Position numbers and translations under genes: made by a program | Shown: one piece after another, positions 2,036 through 55,456 of the stretch | Numbering within the stretch: position 1 is the first letter of the stretch | Layout of the letters: each line of letters starts with the position of its first letter | Assembly: GCF_009451885.1 (NCBI RefSeq) | Contig: NZ_WIAO01000007.1 | Span: 62,001-126,000, forward strand | DNA from: Glycomyces albidus | GTDB taxonomy: Bacteria > Actinomycetota > Actinomycetes > Mycobacteriales > Micromonosporaceae | Length of the DNA: 64,000 nucleotides | Direction of reading: 5' to 3' | The notes under the pieces: model-generated | The model's database searches: none | Told to the model about the DNA's origin: nothing | The model's input: only the letters and a program-made list of their open reading frames with translations

Positions 2036-2162
2036 GGCTCCAGTGTCACCGCCGGCGACGCCGATGCGCAGCCTGGTCAGCGGTTTGCACCGGGCCGTCG
2101 GCGGCGACCCGTGCTCGGACGCGGAGGCGCGGCGCCGGTCGAGTGCTCCGCGTCCGAGCGGG

Positions 2163-3071
2163 TCAGAAGGTGATCAGGAGGGTCGCCGTCTGGTTTCGGC
2201 GGCGGTCGGCGTCGGTGGTGTTGGGGTAGGGCGGGTCGTCGTCGCCGCTGGTCGCGATGGCGATCTCGTCGAGCGGGAGCGCGCCTTGGGCGGCGAGGGA
2301 CTCCGCGGCGGCCAGGGCGCGGGCCAGGCCGAGTTCGGTGTTGTCGGCGTATCGGCTGCCCTCGCCGGTGGGGATGTCGTTGGTGTGCCCGACGACGGTG
2401 ACCCGGGCGCCTTCGAGTCCGGCGATGCGCGCGGCGGCGTCGGCGAGCACGTCCTGCGCGGATTCGGGCAGGTCGGTCCCGCCGTCGGGGAAGATCGCCT
2501 CGTCGAAGGTGACCGTGACGCCGGCGCCGTCGATCCCGGTGGTCCAGCGGGGGTCTTCCAGCGCCGCTTGGACGGTGCTCAGTGCCGCCTCGGGGTTCTC
2601 GCTCGGAGTCGCCTCCGGTTCGGCGGGGGACCGCAGGGCGTCGAGTTCGTCGGCGAGCCGGTCGAGTTCGGCGGCGACGTCCTGGTCGCTCGACGGCTCC
2701 GGCGGCGCCGGCACGAGCGCTTCGCCGGCCACCGCTCCGGCACCCGCCACGAGCAGCACGGCCACTCCGAGACCGACGCCCCGGGCCGTGCGCCCGCGGG
2801 AGCCGGACCAGATCCGGTGGATGCGGCGGCGGCCCTCCCGCGCGCCGGCGTGGTCGCCGTCGAGCGCCTGGACGCGGGCCCAGCACGCGTCGGCGGCGGC
2901 GAGGTCGCCCTGCTGCGCGTGGATGCGGGCGAGCAGGTCGAGCGCGGCGACGTCCTCTCCGAGCCCGGCGAGGGCGCGGCGGGCGTCGTCGTAGCGCCCG
3001 GCCCGGGCGAGCCCGGTCGCCTCGGCGAGGGCCGATCGGGCGGCATGGCGGTTCGCGGTCCCGGTGCTCAT
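2163..3071 (-). CDS. TPR-membrane-OmpA-like protein, last gene of the Hsp70 operon
   Basis: 302 aa. Residues 1-90 form two TPR-like helical pairs (repeated A-x-A-L-A-x-A patterns). A single membrane segment (GVGLGVAVLLVAGAGAVAG) sits near residues 103-121, then an acidic linker and an OmpA-like C-terminus: VTVTFDEAIFPDGG, VTVVGHTND and DADRRRN, with positions equivalent to the peptidoglycan-contacting D and R. Predicted topology is TPR inside and OmpA-like domain outside. Its ATG overlaps the Hsp70 stop by 4 bases (ATGA), so the two are translationally coupled. In the family, OmpA-like domains bind the wall peptide; here that is inferred. It may link the cytosolic chaperone set to the envelope. 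Confidence 0.8.
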   Translation of the reverse strand: MSTGTANRHAARSALAEATGLARAGRYDDARRALAGLGEDVAALDLLARIHAQQGDLAAADACWARVQALDGDHAGAREGRRRIHRIWSGSRGRTARGVGLGVAVLLVAGAGAVAGEALVPAPPEPSSDQDVAAELDRLADELDALRSPAEPEATPSENPEAALSTVQAALEDPRWTTGIDGAGVTVTFDEAIFPDGGTDLPESAQDVLADAAARIAGLEGARVTVVGHTNDIPTGEGSRYADNTELGLARALAAAESLAAQGALPLDEIAIATSGDDDPPYPNTTDADRRRNQTATLLITF

Positions 3072-5587
3072 CGCCGGTCACCCCCGCGGACGGTGCTGGC
3101 CTGGCCCTCGAGGTCGAGTCCGGAGCCCTCGTCGGGCAGGTGGGAGCGCAGCTTCGCGTTCACGGCCGCCAGCTGGTGGACGGTGCCGTCGTTGATCGAG
3201 CGGCGGCCTTCGGCGAGCAGGCGCTGCACCTGCGGGCTCGGGTGGTCGGCCAGGTCGTGCTCCAAGGACGCGAAGACCACCACCGGGAGCCGTCCGCTCT
3301 CGTCGAGCACGCGCACGGCGATCGTCCGGAGCTCGTCGGTCTGCCTGCGGATGAGCGCCTGGTCGCGCTCCTCGACGGCCGCGTCCAGTTCCGCCTCGGC
3401 CCGGCGCAGGTCGGCGCGGTGCTCGGCCTGCCCGGCCTGCTGGACGATCTCCTTGGCCATGCTCAGCGACTCCTTGGCCTCCTCGATGATCTGCGGGAGC
3501 TCCAGGTGCTCCTCGACCCCGTCGAGGACGGTCTGGGCCTCACGCAGCCGCACCAGGCAGGTCGCGGTGGCGTCGGGGTCGATCTCGGCCTGCCGCAGCA
3601 GTCGATCCACTTCGGACAGGGTGTCCTGCGAGTCGAACCGGTCCAGCAGCGCACGGGCCTCGGGCGCGTCGACCTCGGAGGCGCGCTCGCGCAGGTCGTC
3701 GTAGCGGTGCTCGAGTTCGGCGCGGTCGGCGCGCAGATCGGCGAGGCCGGGCGCGGTCGACCTGGCGAGGTCGACGTCGATCTCGATCTCCTCGTCGAGG
3801 ATCGGCACGTACGCCTCGGCGGTGGCCCGGAAGCTGGTGTCGATGCTGACGGTCACCTCGACCTCGCTGCCGGCCGGGACGTCGCGCCTGACCTCGGCGG
3901 GCCGCAGTTCGAGCCGGCCGATGACGGTGTTGCGGTCGACCCGCGGGTGCTCCCCGGACACCAGGGGCACCCGGATGAGGCCGGTCCCGGCGTGCTTGTT
4001 CACGGCCACGGTGGTGAACGTGACGGTCCGCTTGCGCGCGGGCAGCTCGGTGCCCTTGGCCAGCACCGTCTCGATCGAGTTGTCGGAGAGGCCGATGCCG
4101 ATGGAGTGGCTCAGGGTCGGGGCCGCCCCGATGAGGCCCGTGTGGCGGTAGGTCAGGCTCGTCGGATCGGTCGCCACGGGCGTGCCATGCCGGTCGCGCA
4201 GCACGATCGCGAACGTGTTCTTGGTGTTCTCCTCGGCGCGCAGCCGCAGGGTGAAGCCGCCGTCGGGGCGCAGCGCGACGGTGCCGCTGGTCCACGGCGG
4301 CTTCGACTCCCGGTTGGCGAACTCGACGGTGCAGCCCGTCCAGTCCTGGACGGCGTCGTCCCGTGCGCGGCCGCCCACGAGCGGGTCGGTGTCCTGGCCG
4401 ACCGCCGCGTACTCCAGCTCGAGGGCCGCCGTCCCGGGGGCCGCTGTCGGCTTGGATTTGAGCGACCTGGGGATCCGCTGCGTGCCCGCGAAGATGGCCG
4501 CCCCGCGGGCGACGACCGTGACCGGGTCGAGGGAGTGGTCGAGCGGGATGCCGAGGCCCTCGGTCGGATCGGCGAGCATCTCCCGCAGCACGGGTGACTG
4601 GGACATGCCGCCGACGAGGAGGACGCGTTCGATGTCGCCGGCCTTGGTGCGGCTCTCGGCGAGCGCGCGGCGGCACAGCGCGATCGAGGTCTCGACCAGC
4701 GGGCGCGTGACGGCTTCGACGTCGGCCCGGGTGAGCTCGTGGTGGAAGTCGACGAGTTCGCCGTCCTCGCGGCGCAGGTCGACCAGGACGTCCGTCGCCT
4801 CCGATTGCGACAGTTCGATCTTGGCGTTCTCGGCCGCGGCCTTGAGCTTCGCGATGTTGCCCGCCGCGCGGCGGTTGTCCCGGGACAGGTTCCGCAGGCC
4901 GTACTCCCGTTCGGCCTTGGGGATCAGGATCTCCTCCACCAGCGCCCAGTCGGCCCGCTTGCCGCCCAGGAAGTTGTCGCCCGCGTGGTTGACGACCGTG
5001 AACTCGCCGTCCTCGATCTTCACCACCGCGGCGTCGAAGGTGCCGCCGCCGAAGTCGTAGACGAGCCAGAACGCCTTGGACGGCGCATCCCGGACGCTGT
5101 AGGCCCAGGCCGCCGCGGTCGGCTCCTGCAGCAGCGGCGCGAACTCGAGCCCGGCGAGGGCGGCGGCCCGGCTGGTGGCGTCGCACTGGTCGAGCGAGAA
5201 CGCGGCGGGGACGGTGATGACGGCGGCCTCGATGGACTCGCCGGTCCCGGCCGTCACGTTGCCGCGCAGCGACTTGAGGACTTCGGCCGAGAGGTCCTCG
5301 GGTGTCATCGAGCGACCGGAGGCCTTGAACCGCATGTGCTCGCCGCGCTCGCCCATGCGCAGCTTGAACTCGGCGCAGGCGTTGTCGGGGTCGGCCTCCA
5401 CCCGGGCTCGGGCGGCGTCGCCGACGTGGACGTTGCCCGATGCGCTCATGTAGACCGCCGAGGGCGTGAACTCCCGCTGGCGGTTGTTGCGGATGACGAC
5501 CGCGTCGGCCCCTTCGGCCTTCGCGATCGCGCTGTTGGTGGTGCCCAGGTCGATCCCGAAGTCGACGGTTTCACGCTGCGTCGCCAT
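3068..5587 (-). CDS. Long Hsp70 (DnaK-like) chaperone
   Basis: 839 aa, about 200 longer than housekeeping DnaK. The ATPase domain is intact: phosphate-1 loop DLGTTNS at 13-19, phosphate-2 YDFGGGTFD at 177-185, and adenosine motif VLLVGGMSQSP at 322-332. The canonical DVTPLSLG linker is absent. A roughly 100-residue insert follows the ATPase domain before a beta domain (TGLIGAAPTLSHSIGIGL onwards) and a long helical C-terminus (about 620-810) rich in Glu/Arg heptads. No EEVD-type tail. The ATG overlaps the GrpE-like gene by 17 bases. Given its divergence and operon, it is probably a specialised partner of the neighbouring kinase and J-like proteins rather than the general DnaK. Confidence 0.9.
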   Translation of the reverse strand: MATQRETVDFGIDLGTTNSAIAKAEGADAVVIRNNRQREFTPSAVYMSASGNVHVGDAARARVEADPDNACAEFKLRMGERGEHMRFKASGRSMTPEDLSAEVLKSLRGNVTAGTGESIEAAVITVPAAFSLDQCDATSRAAALAGLEFAPLLQEPTAAAWAYSVRDAPSKAFWLVYDFGGGTFDAAVVKIEDGEFTVVNHAGDNFLGGKRADWALVEEILIPKAEREYGLRNLSRDNRRAAGNIAKLKAAAENAKIELSQSEATDVLVDLRREDGELVDFHHELTRADVEAVTRPLVETSIALCRRALAESRTKAGDIERVLLVGGMSQSPVLREMLADPTEGLGIPLDHSLDPVTVVARGAAIFAGTQRIPRSLKSKPTAAPGTAALELEYAAVGQDTDPLVGGRARDDAVQDWTGCTVEFANRESKPPWTSGTVALRPDGGFTLRLRAEENTKNTFAIVLRDRHGTPVATDPTSLTYRHTGLIGAAPTLSHSIGIGLSDNSIETVLAKGTELPARKRTVTFTTVAVNKHAGTGLIRVPLVSGEHPRVDRNTVIGRLELRPAEVRRDVPAGSEVEVTVSIDTSFRATAEAYVPILDEEIEIDVDLARSTAPGLADLRADRAELEHRYDDLRERASEVDAPEARALLDRFDSQDTLSEVDRLLRQAEIDPDATATCLVRLREAQTVLDGVEEHLELPQIIEEAKESLSMAKEIVQQAGQAEHRADLRRAEAELDAAVEERDQALIRRQTDELRTIAVRVLDESGRLPVVVFASLEHDLADHPSPQVQRLLAEGRRSINDGTVHQLAAVNAKLRSHLPDEGSGLDLEGQASTVRGGDRR

Positions 5588-6080
5588 GTGCGGCCTCCTT
5601 GCTCGGTATTGCCACGATCACTTGCCCGGTCTGGATGCGCCGGCCGTCGCGGTACACGGACGGCCGGATCGTTTCGAGGACTTGCTGTTCGAGGACGTTC
5701 GGGTCGTCCTGATAGGTCAGGACGTCCAGGTCGAGTCCGGCGTCGAACCGCATGCCGTCGTGCCCTTGCGCCTCGATGCCGGCCTCCTGCAACCGGTCCC
5801 AGGCGGCGTCGAGGTGGCGGCCCGCCTGCCGCTGCGAACGGGGAACCTCGGCGGTGCCGCCCCGGTCGCCGATCTTGCGGCTCGTGCGCCACAGCTCGGT
5901 GACGATGTCGGCCACGGCCCGGTCGGTGAGGCCGGCCGGGTCCGGGACCGGCTCCGGTGGTGCGGCGGCCGCCGGCTCCGGTTCGGGTGCCGCCGCCGGG
6001 ACGGGCGGCCCGATGCGGAATTCGGCCGGGAAGCGGCGCTGCCGCAGCCGGGCGCCGATCCCGTTCACGTTCGCGGTCAC
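5571..6080 (-). CDS. Small GrpE-like nucleotide-exchange factor candidate
   Basis: 169 aa from a GTG that overlaps the preceding stop (GTGA, 6077-6080). After a Pro/Ala/Glu-rich stretch (about 24-48) comes a short helix, and then a C-terminal module (about 105-160) that resembles the GrpE beta-wing: GMRFDAGLDLDVLTYQ, ETIRPSVYRDGRRIQTG and QVIVAIP. This matches the GrpE order F-D-P / V-x-R-P-G-Y / G-x-V-x-R-P-A-x-V-x-V. The long N-terminal coiled coil of true GrpE is missing. The location directly before Hsp70 supports an exchange-factor role. The assignment is by pattern only and needs a profile search or fold prediction. Confidence 0.6.
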   Translation of the reverse strand: MTANVNGIGARLRQRRFPAEFRIGPPVPAAAPEPEPAAAAPPEPVPDPAGLTDRAVADIVTELWRTSRKIGDRGGTAEVPRSQRQAGRHLDAAWDRLQEAGIEAQGHDGMRFDAGLDLDVLTYQDDPNVLEQQVLETIRPSVYRDGRRIQTGQVIVAIPSKEAAHGDAA

Positions 6081-7642
6081 GCTGCTTCCTCTCGTTTCTT
6101 GGCCCAGGAGCGGAGGTACTCGCGGCGCAGCACCAGGCATACGGTCGCGATCGAGGCGGCCACGGCGCCCACGTAGACGCCCGGCAGCGCGCCCGCGATC
6201 ATGGCGGTGAGCAGGGCCGGCAGCCCGACCAGTGCGACCACGCGGTAGATCCGGGCGGCCTCGCTGAGGGGGACGCGCCCTCCGAAGACCCGCTCCCATG
6301 TGGCGGGGTCGTGGCCGACCAGGTGGGCGCTCAACGGCACCAGCGGGATCCACAGGAAGGTCAGGTACAGGGTCGCGATGTGGGTCTGGACCGACGATCC
6401 GGGCTCGGACCGCTCGTCCCGGTTGCCGTACTGGTGCGCGCCGATGAAGAAGATGCAGCCGGGATTGCTGTTGTAGGGCTTGGAGGCCAGGCGCCGGGGG
6501 TCGTCGAGGATCTTCTTCAGGGCCGCTTCGCGGTCCGGGTCGGTGGTCAACCGGTGCCAGGCCCGCAGTCGCGCGGCGGCCGCGTCGATCCTGCCGCGGT
6601 CGAGGAGCGGCTGGACCTCGCGGATCAGCGGTTCGCTCTCGACGACCGCGAGGTTCTCGTCGATGAGCTCGATCGTGGCCTTGGCGACGGCGACCTTGCG
6701 CGCCACCTGGAGGACGCGTGCGATGCCGGTGCCTTTGCGCCGCTGGTTGAAGTAGCCGACGGCGCAGCGGTTGGCGGTCTTCGCGACCTCCTCGCGGCAG
6801 GCGCGGTTGAGCGGGTCGTCGAAGCCCATCAAAGCCTCGACGACCCGGATCGGCTCGGCCGTCTCGAGCAGGAGGGTCCGGGCCGCTTTGAGGCCCTGCG
6901 AGTCGGACGCCTCCTTCGCGGTCTCGCAGGCGGTCTTGATGCGGGTCTCGGGGCCGTGGACCGCGTTCCTCGCGGCCTTGCGCACCAGGTCCTTCCCGAA
7001 CGGCGACTCGTTCAGCACGCGCATGTGGCGCTCGGCCGCCGCGGTGCGGCGGTCGGCGGCGGCGCTCGCCGCGAGGGCGAGGCTGACGCCGAGGAGGTGC
7101 TCGGGGAGGCGTTCGCGCAGCGCCCGGACGGCGGCCAGCGTCAGGCGCGGATCGTCGATCGCACGCACCCTCGCCTTGGCCCACGTCCAGGTCGCCTCCG
7201 CGTCCAGGACCGCCGCCCAGGCGCGGAGCGCGTCGGTCCACATCGTCTCGAAGTGGTCGCCCGCCTCTTCTGCTTCCATTGCGGCGCAGTGCGTCCGCAC
7301 GGCGACGTTGTGCGGGTCGCCGGCGTCGGCGTCGGGGCGCAGCCACAGCAGTTCGTGGGTGAGGCGCAGGAGCGGGTCGCGCAGCCCTTCGAAGGCGTGG
7401 TGGAGTTCGTCGGGGTCGGCGGAGGGCGGCAGGGGCGCCGCGTCGGCGCCGGCCGGCGGTTCGAAGTACGGGTTCAGGCGCTCCTCCCGGCCGCGGCGCA
7501 CCTGGCGCGGTGAGGCGTCCCCGGGCAGGCCGGTGATCCGGAAGACGTTGCCGCGGTAGAGGGAGCGGCCGGAGAGCGATCCGAGGACGCGGTCCAGTTC
7601 GCTCTTGACCGCGTCGGTCGACAGGGGTTTGGATGTGACCAT
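6077..7642 (-). CDS. Degenerate J-domain membrane protein of the Hsp70 operon
   Basis: 521 aa. Residues about 30-110 look like a J-type helical domain (NVFRITGLPGDASPRQVRRG, then a DPLLRLTHELLWL helix), but no HPD tripeptide is present. The middle is a long helical repeat region. The C-terminus has at least two or three membrane segments: TLYLTFLWIPLVPL (about 430), VVALVGLPALLTAMIAGALPG and VGAVAASIATVCLVL. The ATG at 7642 lies 8 bases after the kinase stop and the stop overlaps the next start by 4. It probably anchors Hsp70 at the membrane. The lack of HPD means stimulation of ATP hydrolysis cannot be assumed. Confidence 0.65.
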   Translation of the reverse strand: MVTSKPLSTDAVKSELDRVLGSLSGRSLYRGNVFRITGLPGDASPRQVRRGREERLNPYFEPPAGADAAPLPPSADPDELHHAFEGLRDPLLRLTHELLWLRPDADAGDPHNVAVRTHCAAMEAEEAGDHFETMWTDALRAWAAVLDAEATWTWAKARVRAIDDPRLTLAAVRALRERLPEHLLGVSLALAASAAADRRTAAAERHMRVLNESPFGKDLVRKAARNAVHGPETRIKTACETAKEASDSQGLKAARTLLLETAEPIRVVEALMGFDDPLNRACREEVAKTANRCAVGYFNQRRKGTGIARVLQVARKVAVAKATIELIDENLAVVESEPLIREVQPLLDRGRIDAAAARLRAWHRLTTDPDREAALKKILDDPRRLASKPYNSNPGCIFFIGAHQYGNRDERSEPGSSVQTHIATLYLTFLWIPLVPLSAHLVGHDPATWERVFGGRVPLSEAARIYRVVALVGLPALLTAMIAGALPGVYVGAVAASIATVCLVLRREYLRSWAKKREEAA

Positions 7643-7650
7643 GCGGGGGA

Positions 7651-8514
7651 CTACCTCGCGTTTCCGTTGGGCCAGTGCCGGAGTCGCTCGCCCAGGCGGG
7701 CGGCGTCGGGGATGCGGCGGCTCGGGTTCGGTTCCAGGGCGCCGAGGACGATGTCCGCCAGCTCGTCGTCGACCTCGGGGTTGAGCAGTTGCGGCGAGGG
7801 CGGGGGCTCGCGGCGCGGGGTGCCGAAGAACGCGACGGGGGAGCTCGTGTCGTGGAACGGCAGCGTGTCGGTGAGCATGAGGTAGGCGATGACGCCGACC
7901 GCCCACACGTCGCCCGCGGGCGAGTCGCCCTTCCGGTAGCGCAGGGCCTCAGGGGCTTTGAACGCGATCGTGCCCTTGGCGCTCGCCAGCCCGGTCAGGA
8001 GGTCCGTGCGCTTGGCGAGGCCGAAGTCGCTGATGCGCACCCGCAGCTCGTCGTGGTGGTAGCCGATGAGGATGTTCTGCGGGGTGAGGTCGCGGTGGAC
8101 GATCGGCGGGCGCTCTCCGTGCGCGACCGCGAGGCCGTCGCAGATCTGCCGGAGGATCTCGACCGCGTCGCCGATGCGGGTGAACCGGTCGCCGTGGGCG
8201 TGCCAGAAGTCGTCGAGGTTCCCGCCGGGGACGTACTCCATCGTGAAGAACCCGAACCGGCCGGCGTCGGTCTCGACGATGTCCGCGTTGAAGACCCGCA
8301 CGATGTTCGGGTGCCCGATCCTCGACAGGAGGATCGCCTCGCCGAGCAGCTCCTCCGTGGCCTCGCGGCTGCCGACGTGCTTGAAGACCTTCATGGCCTG
8401 GCGGCCGAGGAACCGGTGCCGGACGCGGTAGACCTCGGCGAAGGCGCCCTGCCCGAGGAAGCGCTCGACCTCGTAGTGGTCGCCGATCGCCTGGCCTTCG
8501 CTGAGCATGCCCAC
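7651..8514 (-). CDS. Soluble Ser/Thr protein kinase
   Basis: 287 aa, essentially a kinase domain alone. Gly-loop GQGAFAEV 21-28, VAIK-type lysine K42, helix C E59, catalytic loop HRDLTPQN 140-147 (D142), DFG 163-165, and APE 187-189. The loop reads DLTPQN where most bacterial kinases have DLKPxN, so the catalytic-loop Lys is Thr; activity should be tested. No transmembrane or PASTA region, unlike PknB, so it is cytosolic. First gene of a five-gene chaperone operon, 8 bases before the J-like gene. It may phosphorylate the chaperone components or be scaffolded by them; that is inference from linkage. Confidence 0.9.
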   Translation of the reverse strand: MGMLSEGQAIGDHYEVERFLGQGAFAEVYRVRHRFLGRQAMKVFKHVGSREATEELLGEAILLSRIGHPNIVRVFNADIVETDAGRFGFFTMEYVPGGNLDDFWHAHGDRFTRIGDAVEILRQICDGLAVAHGERPPIVHRDLTPQNILIGYHHDELRVRISDFGLAKRTDLLTGLASAKGTIAFKAPEALRYRKGDSPAGDVWAVGVIAYLMLTDTLPFHDTSSPVAFFGTPRREPPPSPQLLNPEVDDELADIVLGALEPNPSRRIPDAARLGERLRHWPNGNAR

Positions 8515-9272: not shown

Positions 9273-10463
9273 ATGGCTTCCATACCGACCCGGCCGCGGC
9301 GCCTCGCCGCGGCCGTCGCCTTGTCAGCGGCGGTCGCCGCCGGAGCGATCGCGACCGTCGCGGCGGGCCCGGCGCACGCCGTCGGCTGCCAAGCGCTCGA
9401 CTACCGGGTCGTCAGCGACTGGGGCGGCGGCCACCAGGCCGCCGTCTCGCTCACCGCCGAGGACGGCGCCGTGAACGGCTGGACGATCGAGTTCCACCTC
9501 AAGCCGGGCGCGCAGGTCCAGAGCGCCTGGAACGTCGATTGGAGCCAGTCCGGCACCGCCTTCACCGGCTCCGACGTCGGCTGGAACGCGGCCGTCGCGG
9601 CCGGGCAGACCCGGGAGCTGTTCGGGCTCGTCGTCTCCGGCTCGGGCGCCCCGCCCGCGACGTTCAAGCTCAACGGCGTCGACTGCGGCCCGATGGAGGA
9701 CCCCACCGACACGCCGAGCGAAGACCCGACGGACGACCCGACGGACGACCCGACGGACGACCCGACGGACGACCCGACCGACCCGCCCGGCGACTGCCCG
9801 GCCGGGGCGGTCTGCGACGGCTTCGAGGACCAGACCGGCACCGTCCCCGGCGGCGAATGGACCGTCGGCGCCCAGGACTGCACCGGCACCGGTACGGCTA
9901 CAGTGGACAGTTCGGTGGCGAACGGCGGCGACCGCTCCATCCGCGTCGACGGCGGCGCCACCTACTGCAACCACGTCTTCGTCGGCCGCGACCTGCCCGC
10001 GGACGCCGAATGGTTCCGCGTCTACATGCGGCACACCACTCCGCAGCCCGCGACCCACACCACCATGATCGCCATGCACGACCGCAACGACGCCGGCACC
10101 GACCTGCGCCTGGGCGGCCAGAACGCGATGCTCCAGTGGAACCGCGAGTCCGACGACGCGACCCTGCCCGCCCAGAGCCCCGCCGGCGTCGCCCTCAGCG
10201 AGCCCTTCCCGGTCGGCACCTGGATCTGCGTCGAGTACCGGATCGCCGGCGGCGAACTCGCCACCTGGGTCGACGGCCGAGCGGTCGAGGGGCTCACCGT
10301 CGACGGCGTCCCGACCCACGACGTGGACGCGCAGTGGCTCTCCAAGCCCTCCTGGAACCCCGACCTCGCCGACCTCCGGCTCGGCTGGGAGAGCTACGGC
10401 AACGACGCCGACACCGTCTGGTACGACGACGTCGCCTTCGGCCCCGAGCGGATCGGCTGTTGA
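9273..10463 (+). CDS. Secreted CBM2 protein with Cip1-like C-terminal domain
   Basis: 396 aa. Sec signal peptide (RPRRLAAAVALSAAVAAGAIA..AHA, cleavage near residue 36), then a family 2 carbohydrate-binding module of about 100 aa bounded by Cys (VGCQALDYRV ... LNGVDCG), with conserved Trp residues for cellulose or chitin binding. A DPTD repeat linker follows, then a roughly 220-aa domain (CDGFEDQTG ... GWESYGNDADTVWYDDVAFG) resembling the Cip1-type beta-jelly-roll found with CBMs in fungi and actinomycetes. AGGAGA ribosome site at 9261-9266. Exported and probably polysaccharide-bound. Cip1-type domains have debated catalytic activity, so I do not name a reaction. Confidence 0.8.
   Translation: MASIPTRPRRLAAAVALSAAVAAGAIATVAAGPAHAVGCQALDYRVVSDWGGGHQAAVSLTAEDGAVNGWTIEFHLKPGAQVQSAWNVDWSQSGTAFTGSDVGWNAAVAAGQTRELFGLVVSGSGAPPATFKLNGVDCGPMEDPTDTPSEDPTDDPTDDPTDDPTDDPTDPPGDCPAGAVCDGFEDQTGTVPGGEWTVGAQDCTGTGTATVDSSVANGGDRSIRVDGGATYCNHVFVGRDLPADAEWFRVYMRHTTPQPATHTTMIAMHDRNDAGTDLRLGGQNAMLQWNRESDDATLPAQSPAGVALSEPFPVGTWICVEYRIAGGELATWVDGRAVEGLTVDGVPTHDVDAQWLSKPSWNPDLADLRLGWESYGNDADTVWYDDVAFGPERIGC
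9723..9782 (+). repeat. 12-bp tandem repeat encoding the DPTD linker
   Basis: Four perfect copies of gacccgacggac (9723-9770) and a fifth with one change, giving D-P-T-D repeats between the CBM2 and the C-terminal domain. Copy number is expected to vary among strains by slippage without breaking the frame. Confidence 0.9.
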
Positions 10464-47185: not shown

Positions 47186-48202
47186 ATGCGAGGAACGATC
47201 ATCTACGCCCCCGGCGACATCCGCTCCGAGGAGCGCCCCGACGCGGCGGTCACCGCGCCGACCGACGCGGTCGTCCGCCTCAGCGCGACCTGCATCTGCG
47301 GCACCGACCTGTGGGCGTACCGCGGCATGGAGCCGATCGCCGAACCCCGGCCGATCGGCCACGAGTACGTCGGCGTCGTCGAACAGGTCGGCGACGGCGT
47401 GCGGAACGTCGAGGTCGGACAGTTCGTCGTCGGCTCCTTCGCGACCTCGGACAACACCTGCGAGATCTGCCGGGCCGGCTACCAGTCCCACTGCGTGCAC
47501 CGGGAGTTCGTCGGCACCGCGCAGGCCGAGCTGCTGCGCGTGCCGAACGCGGACGGCACCCTCGTCGCCGTTCCCGGGCCGCCCGATCCCGACCTCGTCC
47601 CGCACCTGCTGGCCGCTTCGGACGTGCTCGGCACGGGCTGGTTCGCCGCCGACGCGGCCCAGGCCGGTCCCGGGAGGACCGTGGTCGTCGTCGGCGACGG
47701 CGCGGTCGGCCTGCTCGGCGTCCTGTCGGCGAAGCAGATGGGCGCCGAGCGCATCATCGTCATGTCCCGCAACGAGTCCCGCCAGAAGCTCGCCCTCGGC
47801 TTCGGCGCCACCGACATCGTCACCGAGCGCGGCGACGACGGCGTCGCGAGGATCAAGGAGCTCACCGGCGGGCTCGGCGCCCACTCCGTGATCGAAGCCG
47901 TCGGGACGCAGGAGTCGATGGCGCAGGCCGTCCGCTCCGCCCGCGTCGGCGGCCACGTCGGCTACGTCGGCATCTCCCACGGGGTCGAACTGTCCGGCCG
48001 GGAGCTGTTCTTCTCGGGCGTCCACCTCCACGGCGGCCCGGCCCCGGTCCGGCGGTACCTGCCGGACCTCGTCGACCGCATCTGGCGGCGCGAGATCGAG
48101 CCGGGCAAGGTCTTCGACCTGACCCTCCCGCTCGCCGACGTCGCCGAGGGCTACCGGGCCATGGACGAGCGCCGCGCCGTGAAAGTGCTCCTCCAGCCGT
48201 AG
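47186..48202 (+). CDS. Zinc-dependent alcohol dehydrogenase family protein
   Basis: 338 aa. Catalytic zinc ligands C38 (TCICGTDLW) and H59-E60 (IGHEYVG); a structural-zinc-like Cys set in SDNTCEICRAGYQSHC; Rossmann GDGAVGLLGVLSAKQMGAERII. NAD(P)-dependent oxidation of an alcohol or aldehyde. Such genes next to MmyB-type XRE regulators are common in actinobacteria and are probably induced by a reactive aldehyde or alcohol. Cytosolic. Confidence 0.9.
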   Translation: MRGTIIYAPGDIRSEERPDAAVTAPTDAVVRLSATCICGTDLWAYRGMEPIAEPRPIGHEYVGVVEQVGDGVRNVEVGQFVVGSFATSDNTCEICRAGYQSHCVHREFVGTAQAELLRVPNADGTLVAVPGPPDPDLVPHLLAASDVLGTGWFAADAAQAGPGRTVVVVGDGAVGLLGVLSAKQMGAERIIVMSRNESRQKLALGFGATDIVTERGDDGVARIKELTGGLGAHSVIEAVGTQESMAQAVRSARVGGHVGYVGISHGVELSGRELFFSGVHLHGGPAPVRRYLPDLVDRIWRREIEPGKVFDLTLPLADVAEGYRAMDERRAVKVLLQP

Positions 48203-48254
48203 CGGCAACGGGTCGACGAGGACGAGGGGCCGCGTCCCCATCCTCGGCGCCGGA

Positions 48255-48285
48255 CTCGCCGCGATGGGACTCCCATCGCGGCGAG
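48255..48285. terminator. 31-bp palindromic hairpin
   Basis: CTCGCCGCGATGGGA and its reverse complement, separated by one base, 53 bases after the alcohol dehydrogenase stop. As RNA it forms a stem of about 13 pairs with a short loop. Confidence 0.65.
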
Positions 48286-48313
48286 GAACCCCCACGCGAA
48301 TCGCGCCCCTTCT

Positions 48314-48325
48314 GTGAGCGCTAAC
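48314..48325. promoter_or_regulatory. LacI-type box GTGAGCGCTAAC
   Basis: Imperfect palindrome centred on AGCGCT, identical to the box at 48466-48477, 152 bases apart centre to centre. Both precede the locus C sugar-uptake operon, whose own LacI gene is at 51754. Confidence 0.65.
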
Positions 48326-48449
48326 GGAGGTCCGGCGACGAACGACCTCCGGTCGAGCGCCGGTCCGGCGTCAGTGCTGCACCACCTTCTGGCCTGAGCT
48401 GGGTCTCCGCCGCCTCGACCGTGAAGATCGAGAATCCATCGGGCATGTC

Positions 48450-48479
48450 TTGACTCGTGGTGACCGTGAGCGCTAACAT
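48450..48479 (+). promoter_or_regulatory. promoter of the locus C operon with overlapping operator
   Basis: TTGACT (48450-48455), 18-base spacer, TAACAT (48474-48479). The operator GTGAGCGCTAAC (48466-48477) overlaps the -10, a standard repression geometry. The transcription start would be near 48486, about 34 bases before the ATG. Confidence 0.65.
48466..48477. promoter_or_regulatory. LacI-type box GTGAGCGCTAAC overlapping the -10
   Basis: Second copy of the 12-base box; see the promoter at 48450-48479. Most likely bound by the LacI protein encoded at 51754. Confidence 0.7.
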
Positions 48480-48519
48480 TCATGCGCATCACTGCCCCCC
48501 ACGTGACAGGCCAGGTGCC

Positions 48520-49473
48520 ATGCGAACCCTTCCCGTTGCGGAGCCGCGCTCCGAGACCGAGACCGCCCGGCGAGCGGCCCCCCGAGCCGGCCGGCGGCGG
48601 AACCTGAGGACCGCGGTCGAGGCGTACGGCATGCTCGCGCCGAGCCTCATCGGCTTCGCGGTCTTCCTCATCGCGCCGATCGTCGTGGTCGTCGTCCTGA
48701 GCTTCTTCGACTGGAACCTGCTCTCCGATCCCGAGTTCATCGGCCTCGAGAACTACCGCGAGCTCGCGGGGGACGAGCGGGCGCTCCGGTCGATCGGCAA
48801 CACGTTCTACTACGTGCTGCTCAACATCCCCGCCCAGACCGTGCTCGCCCTCCTGCTCGCGCTGGCGCTCAACGCGAAGATCAAGGCCCGCAACACCTTC
48901 CGCGTGCTGTACGTGCTGCCGTGGATGGCCATGCCGGTCGCGCTCGGCGTCATCTGGCGCTGGGTCTTCGACCCCGCCTACGGGGCGCTGAACCGCTTCC
49001 TGGACCTGTTCGGGATCGACGGCGCGGCCTGGCTGACCAGCTCCGCCTGGGCGATGCCCGTCATCGCCTCGGTCAACGTCTGGCAGTACACCGGCTACAC
49101 GATGCTGTTCTTCCTCGCCGGTCTCCAGGCCATCCCCGCGCAGCTCTACGAGGCGGCCGATGTGGACGGCGCCTCGCCCGTGCACCGGTTCTTCGCGATC
49201 ACGCTGCCGCTGCTGCGGCCGGCGATGCTGTTCGTGCTCATCACCAGCGTCATCGGCTCGTTCCAGGTCTTCGACACCATCCACGTGATGACCGCCGGAG
49301 GCCCGGCCGGCTCCACCGCGACGCTGAACTACCAGATCTACCTGGAGTCCTTCACCCAGCGCAACGCCGGCTACGCCTCGATGCTCGCGGTGATCCTCTT
49401 CGCGATCATCGCGCTCATCACCCTCACGCAGGCCGCCCTGTTCCGCAAGCGCACCGTCTACGACTTCAGCTAG
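48520..49473 (+). CDS. Sugar ABC transporter permease 1 (locus C)
   Basis: 317 aa. Basic N-terminus then six membrane helices (AYGMLAPSLIGFAVFLIAPIVVVVVLSF first). EAA loop YEAADVDGASPVHRFFAITLPLLRP (about 207-231). First gene of the operon; ATG 48520 (an in-frame ATG at 48457 lies upstream of the proposed transcription start and is rejected). 10 bases to the next gene. Confidence 0.92.
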   Translation: MRTLPVAEPRSETETARRAAPRAGRRRNLRTAVEAYGMLAPSLIGFAVFLIAPIVVVVVLSFFDWNLLSDPEFIGLENYRELAGDERALRSIGNTFYYVLLNIPAQTVLALLLALALNAKIKARNTFRVLYVLPWMAMPVALGVIWRWVFDPAYGALNRFLDLFGIDGAAWLTSSAWAMPVIASVNVWQYTGYTMLFFLAGLQAIPAQLYEAADVDGASPVHRFFAITLPLLRPAMLFVLITSVIGSFQVFDTIHVMTAGGPAGSTATLNYQIYLESFTQRNAGYASMLAVILFAIIALITLTQAALFRKRTVYDFS

Positions 49474-49483
49474 GAGCACGCCG

Positions 49484-50299
49484 ATGAAGAAGATCCCGCT
49501 CTACCTGGTGCTCGTGGCCGGCGCGCTGCTCTCGGTCGCGCCCTATCTCATGACCGTGAACGCCGCGTTCAAGTCCAAACAGGAGATCCTGACCTCGGAG
49601 CCGTGGGCGCCGCCGGCGAACCCGGTCCTCTCGAACTTCGCGGAGGTCTGGAGCCGCTACGACTTCGCGACCTTCGTCGTCAACTCGCTCGTCGTCGCCG
49701 TGGCCGTCACCGTCGGGCAGCTCGTGTTCTCCACCCTCGCCGCCTACGCGTTCGCGCGCCTCGACTTCCCCGGCCGCGACGCCCTGTTCTGGGCCTACAT
49801 CGCGACCCTCATGGTCCCGCAGATCGTGACCCTCGTGCCCACGTTCATCATCGTGCGCGAGCTCGGCCTGGTCGACACCCACGTGGGGCTGATCCTCCCG
49901 TTCGTGTTCGGCTTCCTCATGCCCTACGGGGTGTTCCTGGTCCGCCAGTACTTCAAGACCATCCCCGCCTCCATCGAGGACGCGGCCCGCATCGACGGGG
50001 CCGGGACGTTCACGATCCTGTGGCGCGTCATGGTCCCCATGGCCAAGCCGATCCTCGGGACGCTCGCGATCATCAGCTTCGTCAACACCTGGAACAACCT
50101 CCTGTGGCCGCTGATCATCACCCACTCGGAGTCGACCAGGGTCATCACGCGCGGCATCGCGCAGATGCAGAGCCAGTTCAACCAGGAGTACCACCTCATC
50201 CTGGCCGCCTCCACCATGGCGCTGCTCCCGCTGGTCGCCGTCTTCCTGGTCTTCCAGCGCCACATCGTCCGCTCCATCGCCCTCAGCGGCATGAAGTGA
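49484..50299 (+). CDS. Sugar ABC transporter permease 2 (locus C)
   Basis: 271 aa, six helices. EAA loop IEDAARIDGAGTFTILWRVMVPMAKP (about 164-189). GGAG before the ATG. Pairs with the preceding permease to form the import channel. No ATPase gene in the operon, so it depends on a shared MsiK-type ATPase elsewhere. Confidence 0.93.
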   Translation: MKKIPLYLVLVAGALLSVAPYLMTVNAAFKSKQEILTSEPWAPPANPVLSNFAEVWSRYDFATFVVNSLVVAVAVTVGQLVFSTLAAYAFARLDFPGRDALFWAYIATLMVPQIVTLVPTFIIVRELGLVDTHVGLILPFVFGFLMPYGVFLVRQYFKTIPASIEDAARIDGAGTFTILWRVMVPMAKPILGTLAIISFVNTWNNLLWPLIITHSESTRVITRGIAQMQSQFNQEYHLILAASTMALLPLVAVFLVFQRHIVRSIALSGMK

Positions 50300-50348
50300 C
50301 GCCGGCACCCGGCGACCGGACCCGCAACCGATCCGGCAACCGACCTCG

Positions 50349-50384
50349 ACCGACCTCTCAACCGACCTCTCAACCGACCTCTCA
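50349..50384 (+). repeat. three perfect copies of accgacctctca
   Basis: 12-base tandem repeat between the permease and binding-protein genes, with a degenerate fourth copy before it (50337-50348). It sits in the untranslated spacer just upstream of the binding-protein ribosome site, where it could tune mRNA processing or translation, or just be slippage. Confidence 0.85.
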
Positions 50385-50405
50385 ATGATGAGAAAGGCAC
50401 GAAGG

Positions 50406-51725
50406 ATGAACAAGACGCGCACGGCGGCCCTCGCCTCGCTCGCGCTCGCCCTCCCCGCACTCGCCGCCTGCGGCGGCGACGACGACGGAGCGGTGACCCT
50501 GCGCTACGCCTTCTGGGACGACAACCAGCGGCCCGCGCTGGAGGCCATGATCGCGGCCTTCAACGAGGACCACCCCGACATCGAGATCGAACTCGAGCAG
50601 AACCCGTGGGACGACTACTGGCCCGGCCTCGACAGCCGGTTCGCGGCCGAGGACGCGCCCGACGTCTTCTGGAACCACGTCTCCCGCTTCCCGACCTACG
50701 CCGACAACGGCGTCCTGCTGCCCCTCACCGACTACATCGAGGAAGACGGCCTCGACCCGTCGGTATACCCCGAGAACCTCTACGACTCATGGCGGTTCGA
50801 GGACGACCAGTACGGCCTGCCGAAGGACTGGGACTCCATCGCCCTCGTCTACCGCATCGACGCGCTCGAAGCCGCCGGGATCGACCCGGCCACCGTCGGC
50901 GACCTCGAATGGAACCCCGTCGACGGCGGCACCTACGTGGAGTTCCTGCAGAAGCTCACGATCGACGCGAACGGCAACAACGCCCTCAGCCCGGACTTCG
51001 ATCCCGAGAACGTGGTCCAGTACGGAACCGCCATGGCCTCCTCCACCGGCCAGACCGACTGGTGGAACTACGCGGTCCAGAACGGCTGCTCGCTCCAGAC
51101 GGAACCCTGGGGCGACTACGCCATCGACGCCCCCGAATGCGTCGAGGCCATCCAGTTCACCGCCGACCTCTACAACAAATGGGGCGTGGCCGTGCCCGCC
51201 GAGTCGACCAACCAGCCCAACGGCGGCGTCCCCGGCGACTACGTCGTCGCCGGCCAGGCCGCGACCGCGCTCGACGGCTCCTGGATGCTCAGCTTCTACC
51301 GCGACGGCCTCGAGCCGGGCACCTGGGCGGTCGCCGACAACCCGTCCGGACCCGTCGGCTCAGGCACCGTCATCAACGGCCTGTCCAACGCGGTCTACGC
51401 CGGCACCGACCACCCCGACGAGGCATGGGAGTTCGTCAAGTTCCTCGGCTCCGAGGAGGCGCAGGCCATCGCCACCGGCATGGGCTCCGTATGGCCGGGC
51501 GTGTCCTCCCTCAACCAGGACTTCGCCGACTACTGGGCCGGCGAGGGCATCGACGTGACCGGCTTCCAGACCGCCGCCGAGGGCACCACCATCGGCTACC
51601 CGCTGTCGATGAACGACGCCGCCTTCGGCACCGCGGCCCTCGACGAGTTCAATCAGGTCTGGCTGGGCCAGAAGGACGCCCAGGAAGCGGCGGAGGCGGT
51701 CGTCGAACTCGCCAACGCCGAATAG
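50406..51725 (+). CDS. Sugar ABC transporter substrate-binding lipoprotein (locus C)
   Basis: 439 aa. Lipobox ALPALAACGG (Cys about 22), acidic tether GDDDG, and a CUT1 family 1 binding fold: RYAFWDDNQRPALEAMIAAFNEDHPDIEIEL, DAPDVFWNHVSRFPTYADNGVLLPLTDY, GLPKDWDSIALVYRIDAL, ATALDGSWMLSFY. ATG 50406 chosen for AAAGG 9 bases upstream (ATG at 50385 is the alternative). Captures oligosaccharide outside the cell for the two permeases. Confidence 0.92.
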   Translation: MNKTRTAALASLALALPALAACGGDDDGAVTLRYAFWDDNQRPALEAMIAAFNEDHPDIEIELEQNPWDDYWPGLDSRFAAEDAPDVFWNHVSRFPTYADNGVLLPLTDYIEEDGLDPSVYPENLYDSWRFEDDQYGLPKDWDSIALVYRIDALEAAGIDPATVGDLEWNPVDGGTYVEFLQKLTIDANGNNALSPDFDPENVVQYGTAMASSTGQTDWWNYAVQNGCSLQTEPWGDYAIDAPECVEAIQFTADLYNKWGVAVPAESTNQPNGGVPGDYVVAGQAATALDGSWMLSFYRDGLEPGTWAVADNPSGPVGSGTVINGLSNAVYAGTDHPDEAWEFVKFLGSEEAQAIATGMGSVWPGVSSLNQDFADYWAGEGIDVTGFQTAAEGTTIGYPLSMNDAAFGTAALDEFNQVWLGQKDAQEAAEAVVELANAE

Positions 51726-51753
51726 CAGCCGACTCGAGAGGTGACCGACCGCG

Positions 51754-52777
51754 ATGAGCGCCGAATCCAAGCCCGTCAGCATCTTCGACGTGGCGAAGCA
51801 CGCAGGGGTGTCGCACCAGACCGTCTCGCGCGTCATCAACGACGCGCCGATGGTCGCCGCCGCCACCCGCGCCAAAGTGAAGGCCGCGATCAGCGAACTG
51901 GGCTACCGGCCCAACCGCTCGGCGCGCGCCCTCGCCGGAGGCGCCGTGCGGTCGGTCACCGTCCTCACCACCGACACCTCGCTCTACGGGACCGCCGAGA
52001 CCATCCGCGGCATCGAGGACGCCGCCCGGGCCGCCGGGTTCACCATCCTCATCTCGGTCCTCGACCCAGGCGAGACGTACTCCGAATCCGACGTCCTCGG
52101 GCGGCTCCCGCAGGACGGCGCCCCCGCGATCGTCATCGCCCACGACGAGACCACGTCGAACGCCGTGCGGGCGCTGCGCAGGCGGCAGCCCCGCGCCACC
52201 GTCGCCACCGGCGGCGAGCACCTCGACGAGGTGTCGGACGCGGCCGACTGGCTCGTCTCGCTCGACGACCGCACCGTCGCCGCCCGCGCCACCCGGTACC
52301 TGCTCTCCATGGGCCACGACACCGTCCACCACCTGGCCATCCCGTCCGAAGCCGGCCGGCAGGACGGCTGGGCCGACGCGCTCGCCGACGCCGGGATCGA
52401 CGCCCCCGCGGTCGTCCACTCCGGATGGTCGATCGGATCGGCGGCCGAAGCGGCCGCCGGCCTCGTCGCCGACCCCTCGGTGACGGCGATCCTCTGCGGC
52501 AACGACGACCTCGCCTTCGGGGTGCTCCACGCCGCCGACCGCGCCGGCCGCACCGTCCCCGGCGACCTGAGCGTCATCGGCTTCGACGACTGCCCGCTCG
52601 CCGCCTACAACGTCCCGCCACTGACCACTGTCGACCTCGACTTCCGCGGCGTCGGCCGCGGCGCCTTCGAACTGCTGCGACACAAGCTCGAAGGCGGTCC
52701 CGAACCCCGACCCTCCTGGCGGTCGCCCGAACTCATCGTTCGGGAGACCTCCGGGCCTCCCCGTCAACGACGATTAG
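51754..52777 (+). CDS. LacI-family regulator of locus C; normal stop missing
   Basis: Helix-turn-helix VSIFDVAKHAGVSHQTVSRVINDAPMVAAATRAKVKAAI, hinge GYRPNRSARALAGG, effector domain DLSVIGFDDCPLAAYNVPPLTTVDLD and the usual tail LLRHKLEGG...SPELIVRETSG at residue about 335. There the gene should end, but the frame stays open for about 990 more bases to 53754, overlapping the next gene out of frame with Arg/Ser/Pro-rich nonsense. A TAG in the +1 frame (52775-52777) would give a normal 341-aa protein, so a single-base indel near 52750-52770 is likely. Binds probably at 48314 and 48466. Confidence 0.85.
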
Positions 52778-52790
52778 CGAAAGGCCTGCA

Positions 52791-55355
52791 ATGCATCCAC
52801 TCCTCCGCAGAGGACTCACGGCCGCCGCGGCGACCGGCCTGGTCGCCGGACTCGCGGCCGCGCCGGCCGGCGCCCAGGACCTCCCGGTCCTCTCCGTCGA
52901 CTTCGGACAGCTCACGGGCGAGCCGACCCACGGCGCGGTCGGCTCCCTGTACGGGATCTCCGAGAACGGCGTGCCCGGCGACAACCTCCTCGACGCACTC
53001 CACCTCGCCTCCATGGCCCCCAAGCCGACCGGCGGCCTCCAGCACCCCAACGGCGACGCGAACGACGTCCTCGCGGTCCTCGCCGAGCACGACGGCGGCG
53101 ACGCCTTCGTCAACCTCCAGGACTGGTACCCCGACTGGCCCTACCAGAACGACGGCATCGACGCCTACCTCGCCGAGATCGAGGAGATGGTCCCGGTCAT
53201 GGAGGCGTCCGAGCACGCCGACCGGCTCGTCTACGTGCCCTTCAACGAACCGAACTGGATCTGGTACAACCGCGGCGCCGACTACGAGGGCACCACCGCC
53301 CGCTTCTTCCACGACTGGGACCTCGCCTACCGGCGCCTCCGCGAGATCGCCCCCGACACGCCGATCGCCGGCCCCAACGAATCCCACTACGACGCCCGGT
53401 TCATGCGCGACTTCATGGAGCACACCGCCGCGGCCGGCACCGTCCCCGACGTCATCACCTGGCACGAGCTCTCGCCGGACTCCCTGCGCTACTACGAAGG
53501 CAACCACGACCACTACCGCGCCCTCGAAGCCGAACTCGGCATCGAGCCGCGGCAGATCAACATCAACGAGTACGGCAACAACCGGGACTTCGGCATGCCC
53601 GGCCAGATGGTCCAGTGGGCCGCCATGTTCGAGGACACCGACGCCCTCGCCGACATGGCGTACTGGACCGCGGCGGGCGGCCTCTCCGGCAACGCCCCGC
53701 AGACCAACGTCCCCAACGGCGGCTGGTGGTTCCTCAAGACCTACTCGCAGATGACCGGCCAGACCGCGCTCGTCACGCCGCCGCAGGACAACGCCGTGGA
53801 CACCCTCCAGGGCATCGCCACCTACGACGAGGCGAAGGGCCAGGCGCAGATCCTGCTCGGCGGCGGCTCCGGCGACACCGCCGTCGACCTGACCGGACTC
53901 GGCGCCGCCGGCATCGACCTCGGCCGCAAGATCACCGCCACCGTCCACGAGATCGCCTGGACCGGCAACGAGGGCTCCTCGCCCGCACCGCAGGTCGTCG
54001 ACCGCATCGCGCTCCGCCCCGACCGCGGCGCCGCCACGATCGAACTCGCCGGCCTCGACCCCATGTCCGCCTACTGGATCACCCTCACCCCGGGCACCGG
54101 CCGGGTCGACGAGGTCGAACTGCCGTGGACCGGCACCTGGGAAGCCGAGGACGCCGCGATCACCGCCGGCACCGTCTACGACGAAGGCGGCCCCGCGAGG
54201 CCGTTCTCCTTCCCCGCCTCCGGCGGCAAGAGCGTCGGCTCGCTGATCCAGCCCGACAGCCGCGTCGAGTTCGACGTCGACGTCCCCGAGGCCGGCGTCT
54301 ACGACCTCACCGTCACCTACGGGAACACCTACGGCCGCAACCTCCCCGAAGGCGCCTCGCCCACCGAGCAGTTCCTCACCGTCAACGGCGGCCCCGCCGA
54401 GACCATCACCTACCCGTCGACCATGCAATGGGGCTCCCGAGGCCAGGTCACCGTCCAGGTCGAACTCGAGGCCGGCGCGAACACGATCGCGCTCGCCAAG
54501 TCCGACCCCGAGGCCGGGACCGCCTACGGCGAGGCCGGACTCGACAAGATCGACCTCACGCCCTCCACCGTCGACACGCACACCTACCCGGCCGTCTTCG
54601 CCCGCACCGAAGGCGACGCCGACTACGACTACGGCCACCGGGAAGGCGTCGAAGTCCGCGGCGACGAGCGGATCGTCTTCGACGTCTACGCGCCCGCCGA
54701 CGGCTACTACGAGGTCGCCGTCGACGCCGACGGCAAGGGCGAGCTCACCGTGCTCGGCCCCCACGGCGAGGACATCGCCTTCGACCTCGAGGACGAGCAG
54801 ACCCTCGCCCTCCACGAAGGCGTCAACCGCATCGCCCTGAACGCCGCCGGCCGACGCGCCCTCGACGTCCACTCCCTCACCGTCACCGCCGACGGCGGCA
54901 CCGAGGGCTTCACCGAGATCGCGGCCGCCGACGCCGACCTGTCCGGCACCGCCGCCCTGACCGACAACCCGTGGGCGACCGGCGGCCAGGCCATCACCGG
55001 CGTGGGCGGCGGCGACGGCAACACCGCCACCCTCACCGTCGAAGCCGACCAGGCCGGACCGCACCTGCTCCTCGTCCACTACGCCAACGACGAACGCAAG
55101 AGCGGCCACGACTACAACATCGACATCATCTCCCGCTACGCCGAGTTCACCGTCAACGGCGAAACGGTCCGCACCGTCCCCATGCGGGGCACCTGGAGCT
55201 GGAACGACTTCTGGTCCTACCCGCTCATCGTCGACCTCGACGCCGGAACCAACACCATCGAGATCGGCAACCCCGGCCTGTTCACCGACATCGGCGACCG
55301 CGAAGGCCGCGCCGCCGACTTCGACCGCTTCGCGATCGCGCCGCTCCTAGAATGA
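52791..55355 (+). CDS. Secreted GH39-like (clan A) hydrolase with CBM35-like modules
   Basis: 854 aa. Signal peptide RRGLTAAAATGLVAGLAAAPAGA, cleaved near 28. Catalytic barrel with YVPFNEPNW (acid/base E153), VITWHELSPD and ININEYGNN (nucleophile E260), matching the paralogue at 16475. A beta domain follows (to about 440), then a CBM35-like module WTGTWEAEDAAITAGTVYDEGG ... GLDKIDL, and two further beta modules ending NTIEIGNPGL. Extracellular. Last gene of the transporter operon, so it presumably releases the transported sugar. Substrate unknown. Confidence 0.8.
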   Translation: MHPLLRRGLTAAAATGLVAGLAAAPAGAQDLPVLSVDFGQLTGEPTHGAVGSLYGISENGVPGDNLLDALHLASMAPKPTGGLQHPNGDANDVLAVLAEHDGGDAFVNLQDWYPDWPYQNDGIDAYLAEIEEMVPVMEASEHADRLVYVPFNEPNWIWYNRGADYEGTTARFFHDWDLAYRRLREIAPDTPIAGPNESHYDARFMRDFMEHTAAAGTVPDVITWHELSPDSLRYYEGNHDHYRALEAELGIEPRQININEYGNNRDFGMPGQMVQWAAMFEDTDALADMAYWTAAGGLSGNAPQTNVPNGGWWFLKTYSQMTGQTALVTPPQDNAVDTLQGIATYDEAKGQAQILLGGGSGDTAVDLTGLGAAGIDLGRKITATVHEIAWTGNEGSSPAPQVVDRIALRPDRGAATIELAGLDPMSAYWITLTPGTGRVDEVELPWTGTWEAEDAAITAGTVYDEGGPARPFSFPASGGKSVGSLIQPDSRVEFDVDVPEAGVYDLTVTYGNTYGRNLPEGASPTEQFLTVNGGPAETITYPSTMQWGSRGQVTVQVELEAGANTIALAKSDPEAGTAYGEAGLDKIDLTPSTVDTHTYPAVFARTEGDADYDYGHREGVEVRGDERIVFDVYAPADGYYEVAVDADGKGELTVLGPHGEDIAFDLEDEQTLALHEGVNRIALNAAGRRALDVHSLTVTADGGTEGFTEIAAADADLSGTAALTDNPWATGGQAITGVGGGDGNTATLTVEADQAGPHLLLVHYANDERKSGHDYNIDIISRYAEFTVNGETVRTVPMRGTWSWNDFWSYPLIVDLDAGTNTIEIGNPGLFTDIGDREGRAADFDRFAIAPLLE

Positions 55356-55370
55356 CCCGCCGGCGCCGAT

Positions 55371-55405
55371 GAGAGCCCGCCCCCGATCCCACGGGGCGGG
55401 CTCTC
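55371..55405 (+). terminator. hairpin ending the locus C operon
   Basis: Perfect 13-base arms GAGAGCCCGCCCC / GGGGCGGGCTCTC with a 9-base loop, 15 bases after the GH39-like stop. Confidence 0.85.
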
Positions 55406-55456
55406 ACCGCGACACCGCACACCACAGCACCACCGACACCCGTGAAAGGACGCCGC

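Follow-up and report, generated by a model that had tools for sequence, protein, structure and literature searches.

The 64,000-nucleotide stretch of the Glycomyces albidus genome analysed here (the window) carries five minus-strand genes that encode, in this order, a kinase, a J-like membrane protein, a GrpE-like protein, an Hsp70 and an OmpA-like protein, and this five-gene set recurs in about eight phyla, far beyond close relatives. Sequence comparison and structure prediction indicate that a stalk-less GrpE homologue and an HPD-less J-domain membrane protein are co-encoded and co-inherited with the Hsp70. We favour, as the somewhat probable reading, a membrane-tethered Hsp70 remodelling machine that acts independently of HPD, with phosphorylation as the gate on its activity or assembly. 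At roughly even odds, the operon would represent an undescribed class of Hsp70 system spanning about eight phyla, whose J-protein and Hsp70 have both lost the universal HPD-Arg167 switch in favour of other control, probably phosphorylation together with an inserted linker domain, and whose members are membrane-tethered and have their own GrpE and, in many phyla, their own ClpB. A literature search, with preprints and most subscription papers outside its reach, found no description of the five-gene set.

The genes lie exactly at the coordinates given in the initial annotation, with the gap and overlaps that it reported (Table 1). Eight bases (7643-7650) separate the kinase and J-like genes, and the following genes overlap by 4 bases (J-like/GrpE-like), 17 bases (GrpE-like/Hsp70) and 4 bases (Hsp70/OmpA-like). 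The kinase may start at the ATG at 8508 instead of the GTG at 8514. Among relatives, the GrpE-like and Hsp70 genes overlap in 68% of the cases and the Hsp70 and OmpA-like genes in 66%, with a median of -4 bp; the order and overlaps of the five genes are far beyond chance. The strong hairpin at the end of the last gene is consistent with a single transcription unit. The domains of the kinase, the Hsp70 and the OmpA-like protein passed the Pfam cut-offs. Divergent from the operon, at 9273-10463 on the plus strand, lies a gene for a probable secreted protein with a DPTD-repeat linker and, by eye, a cellulose-binding-like domain. At positions 48000-56000 the GC skew is strongly negative (-0.12 to -0.19), which sets this stretch apart from most of the window.

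Table 1. Genes, predicted domains and terminal hairpin of the operon, in window coordinates.
Feature	Position	Strand	Basis
Hanks-type Ser/Thr kinase, 287 aa	7651..8514	-	PF00069 2.6e-41
J-like membrane protein, 521 aa: degenerate J-domain, alpha-solenoid, C-terminal TM helices	6077..7642	-	AF2 model; profile vs DnaJ; TM 468-486
Degenerate J-domain, residues 32-98, without HPD	7349..7549	-	Profile comparison
C-terminal hydrophobic helices, residues 461-505, one or two TM segments	6128..6262	-	Hydropathy; AF2 helices 461-482, 487-520
GrpE-like protein, 169 aa, GTG start	5571..6080	-	AF2 model, Foldseek, family PF01025 matches
GrpE head and beta-wing, residues 52-162, long dimer stalk absent	5595..5927	-	Alignment to GrpEL1 104-219
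Hsp70, 839 aa	3068..5587	-	PF00012 4e-80; PDB DnaK 3e-55
Hsp70 nucleotide-binding domain (NBD); catalytic residues intact, R167>P, N170>Q, Q378>F	4475..5560	-	Alignment
NBD-SBD linker region, expanded by conserved inserted domain	4100..4480	-	127 residues vs 18 in own DnaK; family alignment
Hsp70 substrate-binding beta domain (SBD-beta)	3788..4102	-	Weak collinear second match to DnaK 392-464; alignment to own DnaK
TPR-like/TM/OmpA-like protein, 302 aa	2163..3071	-	PF00691 7.5e-11; MotB/PomB/Rv0899 structures; TM 98-116
OmpA/MotB-like C-terminal domain	2193..2492	-	PF00691 7.5e-11; MotB-like structures
RNA hairpin directly 3' of last stop codon, probable operon terminator	2095..2165	-	-41.7 kcal/mol, z -2.72

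The homology of the J-like protein to the J-domain rests on profiles, since single-sequence scans miss it: Pfam, NCBIfam and PADLOC gave nothing relevant for the window protein, and no Pfam DnaJ match was listed for any member in the family-wide scan. When its N-terminal 70 residues were compared with the DnaJ J-domain by hhalign, 58 of 66 columns were aligned with a score of 28.9, against 14.6 for the highest-scoring of 60 column shuffles and 8.6 when reversed. A PDB search with a 28-sequence profile gave a DnaJ J-domain as best match (E 0.017), and 16 of the 28 matches up to E 10 were J-domains over the same residues, the rest being mostly designed armadillo repeats. The helices predicted at residues 33-37, 45-55, 77-87 and 90-98 in the AF2 model (pLDDT 84.8) fit the J-domain order. 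A fold search with the whole model returned alpha-solenoids and no J-domains; as the solenoid that follows the J-domain fills the match list, this absence is not evidence either way. Beyond this solenoid, the C-terminal hydrophobic helices would place the protein in the membrane, and a TM segment was predicted in 74 of 89 J-like proteins. The HPD motif is absent in all 80 rows of the J-like alignment; to our knowledge, this motif has been described as invariant and critical for the action of J-proteins on Hsp70. The J-like partner proposed at the outset is thus retained, by sequence, as a J-domain homologue, and a canonical J function is not supported, the HPD being absent and the HPD-receiving residues of the Hsp70 lost (see below). 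Tandem J-like genes were seen in one unit at several loci (L086, L095, L124, L125 and L026), as would fit a pairing of two J proteins that lack HPD.

The GrpE-like protein also escaped the single-sequence scans (Pfam, NCBIfam and PADLOC, nothing relevant), and 21 of the 64 members of its family match PF01025. Its AF2 model (pLDDT 88) retrieved GrpE structures as all of the top 12 Foldseek hits, with a VIA Z of 10.5 over 110 residues, so that the GrpE-like assignment was borne out and an unrelated fold set aside. A five-member profile run over 396 genomes of the phylum recovered only the window protein and six genuine grpE genes, most of them with an adjoining dnaJ. The long N-terminal dimerisation helix is missing from the model, in which a short helix (residues 7-14) is followed by helices 53-72 and 81-99 before the wing.

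The HSP70 Pfam match (PF00012, 4e-80) covers only the NBD of the operon Hsp70; sequence and prediction describe a full chaperone, with NBD, SBD-beta and helical C-terminus, and an intact ATPase site. The equivalents of D8, T11, K70, E171, D194, T199 and D201 are invariant in 69 of 69 family members. In DnaK, Asp35 of the J-protein HPD bonds to R167 and Q378 (PMC8215388; for R167 also PMC7289447). The R167 position is occupied by Pro in 61 of the 69 proteins, including that of the window, and by Arg in one; the Q378 position is Phe or Tyr in 68 (Phe in the window) and Gln in none, and the N170 position is Gln in 63. Judged from these alignments, both faces of the J-protein/Hsp70 contact are changed together. 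The loss of R167 alone is not unique, as it is also absent in 2 of 6 other Hsp70 paralogues of the same genome; what matters is the reciprocal pattern in the J-like protein and the Hsp70. The segment between NBD and SBD-beta is likewise altered: it measures 110-140 residues in 69 of 69 family members, against 18 residues with the allosteric linker in DnaK, and the short hydrophobic interdomain linker (VLLLD) is not seen in the window Hsp70. The insert, of about 110 residues, is well conserved across the family alignment and gave no convincing PDB sequence match. A separate standard dnaK-grpE-dnaJ set is located on another contig of the same genome. A PF00012 search located Hsp70 genes at about 14 separate places in this 5.8 Mb genome, many of them with domains added or absent. 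One of them, on the window's own contig about 11 kb before the window start (L023:3385-5964), encodes an 859-aa protein (PF00012, 5.7e-92) with a caspase-like N-terminus by eye; it is preceded by a small protein and looks like another specialised Hsp70.

The kinase consists of the kinase domain only, with no TM segment, and presents the G-loop, the VAIK Lys, HRDLTPQN and DFG; the catalytic residues are kept in essentially all 43 operon kinases (one alignment gap). Its best PADLOC models were mad6 and PD-T4-6, among many generic models matched, and neither the J-like nor the GrpE-like protein matched any. The OmpA-like protein contains one TM segment (predicted in 42 of 49 family members) and a weak TPR_2 match (0.0054), and the best NCBIfam model for its OmpA domain is the TssL long form (3.4e-14, far below the cut-off). 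An Asp-Arg pair in OmpA-family domains binds peptidoglycan through diaminopimelate. The Arg is invariant in 40 of 40 members, and the Asp position is Asn in the window and Asp in 10 of the 40. The anchoring of this protein to the wall is therefore uncertain, and the suggestion of wall sensing through the OmpA-like domain is weak. Further genes join the set in relatives: FHA genes in 20 actinobacterial loci (one bacteroidal FHA call is weak), PP2C genes in 5 actinobacterial loci, and ClpB-like genes in 8 of the 18 loci outside the actinobacteria. One FHA family was confirmed by Pfam, as were the examples of PP2C and AAA+; the other two FHA-like families did not pass the Pfam cut-offs and are called from motifs only. 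Two ClpB-like variants carry a class III cyclase domain, and one of these is a short form without AAA+. In both, the adenylate/guanylate cyclase domain is inserted in a protein with a Clp-type N-domain (L115:6972-9926 and L135:15728-16864) next to the Hsp70 unit, and one of the two is fused to AAA+ modules. The TM segments, the intact kinases and the FHA and PP2C genes of relatives are consistent with the membrane tethering and phosphorylation control first proposed, which we infer on these grounds.

Relatives were recovered with a profile of the J-like N-terminal region built from 11 order-level sequences; a single-sequence J-like scan of the genome contigs recovered none. The profile matched in 20 of 399 genomes of the order, and gave 80 loci in 84,980 species genomes, 62 of them actinobacterial. 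The other 18 belong to Verrucomicrobiota with Lentisphaerae, Acidobacteriota, Bacteroidota, Nitrospirota (Magnetominusculus), Thermodesulfobacteriota, Pseudomonadota and one Methanothrix bin, taxon labels whose exact assignment calls for caution, these records being mostly metagenome bins. Binning errors were considered as the origin of the non-actinobacterial loci and rejected, since their Hsp70s cluster together in the tree and their G+C ranges from 0.38 to 0.73. The archaeal locus in the Methanothrix bin (L141) contains a J-like gene, two GrpE-like genes and two Hsp70s, one of them NBD-only in length (373 aa). With the window included, the J-like, GrpE-like and Hsp70 genes occur together in 71 of 81 loci, with the OmpA-like gene in 57 and with all five in 35. 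The kinase is missing from many loci, among them 14 with the J-like/GrpE-like/Hsp70/OmpA-like set and 9 with the J-like/GrpE-like/Hsp70 set. The window's gene order from kinase to OmpA-like protein is also found in verrucomicrobial, acidobacterial, nitrospirotal and bacteroidal loci. The outcome named beforehand as adverse to the initial annotation, a neighbourhood confined to close relatives, was thus not observed. Of the self-contained unit that this annotation described, the conserved set, the GrpE fold and the J-domain homology stand, and a canonical J function is not supported.

The members of the set appear to have evolved together. Tree distances of the J-like protein and the Hsp70 correlate at 0.91, a value reached in 0 of 200 permutations, and those of the GrpE-like protein at 0.71-0.76 within the set. 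The nearest relatives of the window's J-like protein, GrpE-like protein and Hsp70 are found in Promicromonospora, then in Streptomyces and Nocardia; the J-like gene is present in 7 of 22 congeners, and the sets of other Glycomyces are of a different type, ranking 18th or farther from that of the window. Most likely, to judge from these trees, the unit is co-inherited and moves between lineages as a block. With the queries used, searches of 72,556 plasmids and 50,697 phages did not find it. In three Glycomyces relatives without the operon, an AraC/RibD-type flank adjoins different genes, and the synteny is too disrupted to define a clean site of insertion. Outside the unit the neighbours vary between loci and are ordinary genes; the conserved neighbourhood stops at the operon. 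A defence-island setting was rejected on the window neighbours alone, which are ordinary genes with little PADLOC signal.

In the proposed machine, the J-like protein would dock the Hsp70 to the membrane on its cytoplasmic side and would drive or restrain hydrolysis without the HPD-Arg167 contact, through the inserted linker domain or the alpha-solenoid, and the GrpE-like protein would exchange nucleotide for the operon Hsp70. The kinase would switch the complex on, opposed by PP2C and read by FHA where these are present; its absence from many loci means that phosphorylation control is not universal and may be provided in trans or be an add-on. The OmpA-like protein may anchor or localise the complex in the envelope. 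The output would be the pulling apart or reshaping of a protein assembly at the membrane, with the help of a ClpB-like disaggregase in the non-actinobacterial versions.

The patchy presence of the unit and its horizontal movement, with a set nearer to other genera than to other Glycomyces, would also suit a conflict system, anti-phage or inter-bacterial. In such a system, an invader would be sensed by the kinase, and the Hsp70 machine would then act on complexes at the membrane, foreign or self, by unfolding, assembling or sequestering them. Themes combining Hsp70, GrpE and DnaJ, and kinase with PP2C, have been described in actinobacterial conflict systems (PMC7159879), and the best PADLOC models of the kinase point the same way. 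We regard this reading as unlikely: the kinase match is generic, patchiness alone is no proof of defence, no toxin-like effector gene is present in the unit, its neighbours are ordinary with little PADLOC signal, and the plasmid and phage searches gave no match.

An assembly or disassembly apparatus for an envelope or surface structure, functionally analogous to the accessory set of type VI secretion, is less probable still. That set comprises a kinase, PP2C, FHA, ClpV and an OmpA-bearing TssL, and the same combination of modules is met in relatives of the window's operon, whose OmpA domain resembles TssL below the cut-off. However, no structural genes of a secretion system or filament were seen in the units, and the conserved neighbours stop at the operon. 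The full ATPase site and substrate domain, and the ClpB-like partner in several phyla, could finally be taken for a second general stress chaperone, that is, an ordinary DnaK-like machine with diverged helpers. Such a role is very doubtful, given that HPD and its receiving residues are lost on both sides, that the linker carries an insert, that the unit has membrane anchors, its own kinase and a patchy presence, and that the same genome keeps its standard chaperone genes elsewhere.

Several known systems bear comparison with the tethered remodelling machine that we favour. The closest described gene sets are the GTPase-centric conflict systems of the GAP1-N2 class with an HSP70 theme (Kaur et al. 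2020, PMC7159879), which are actinobacterial and membrane-linked and combine Hsp70 with a co-encoded GrpE and a DnaJ-domain protein, kinase and PP2C occurring in another theme of the class. GTPases and GAP1 form their core, FNIII-DnaJ fusions accompany them, and they have not been described with the kinase, OmpA-like and ClpB-like partners of this set (PMC7159879); the operon is set apart by gene content and description, with its HPD-less J-domain and its kinase, OmpA-like and ClpB-like partners. No GTPase or GAP1 gene was found among the window's five genes, their immediate neighbours or the recurrent neighbours of relatives, and no FNIII-DnaJ fusion among the five genes or their immediate neighbours. 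A cluster on contig 62 of the same genome (L154, 885-7086) does resemble those systems (PMC7159879): it encodes a pair of dynamin-like GTPases together with a membrane GrpE and a DnaJ protein that bears the HPD, and no Hsp70 is present on that contig. The canonical DnaK-DnaJ-GrpE(-ClpB) system shares the logic of Hsp70, J protein and GrpE, with or without a ClpB-type partner, and an identical ATPase site, but differs in the HPD, R167 and Q378 that the operon lacks, and in the linker insert, stalk-less GrpE, membrane anchors and dedicated kinase that it has.

The closest working analogy, not a homology, is the mitochondrial import motor (mtHsp70, Pam18/Pam16 or Magmas, and Mge1), whose membrane-tethered Hsp70/GrpE machinery includes Pam16/Magmas, a J-like subunit that lacks HPD (PMC8605242). 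This motor needs an active HPD-bearing Pam18, whereas the operon encodes no such partner and no translocase. CoCoNuT systems associate the Hsp70-like CnuD with kinase/PP2C modules (TerY-P kinase/phosphatase); they differ in being McrBC-type restriction systems with nucleases, CnuD is predicted to be a very weak ATPase, and DnaJ is unmentioned (PMC11090510). Cyanobacterial DnaK1/DnaJ3 and Myxococcus StkA and SglK are likewise specialised Hsp70s at envelope machinery (PMC9239167, PMC4319316), but neither a kinase nor an OmpA gene has been reported among their components, and DnaK1 is served by standard J proteins and a shared GrpE.

The operon thus pairs a J-domain homologue with a partner Hsp70; between them the two have lost both halves of the HPD contact, and yet they stay together across many phyla with the ATPase intact. 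Which other triggers can drive the Hsp70 cycle is a long-standing question, now directly testable with a compact five-gene kit. The unit would extend the control of bacterial chaperones to kinase, FHA and PP2C modules, and it gives J-like and GrpE-like families of unknown function a defined context.
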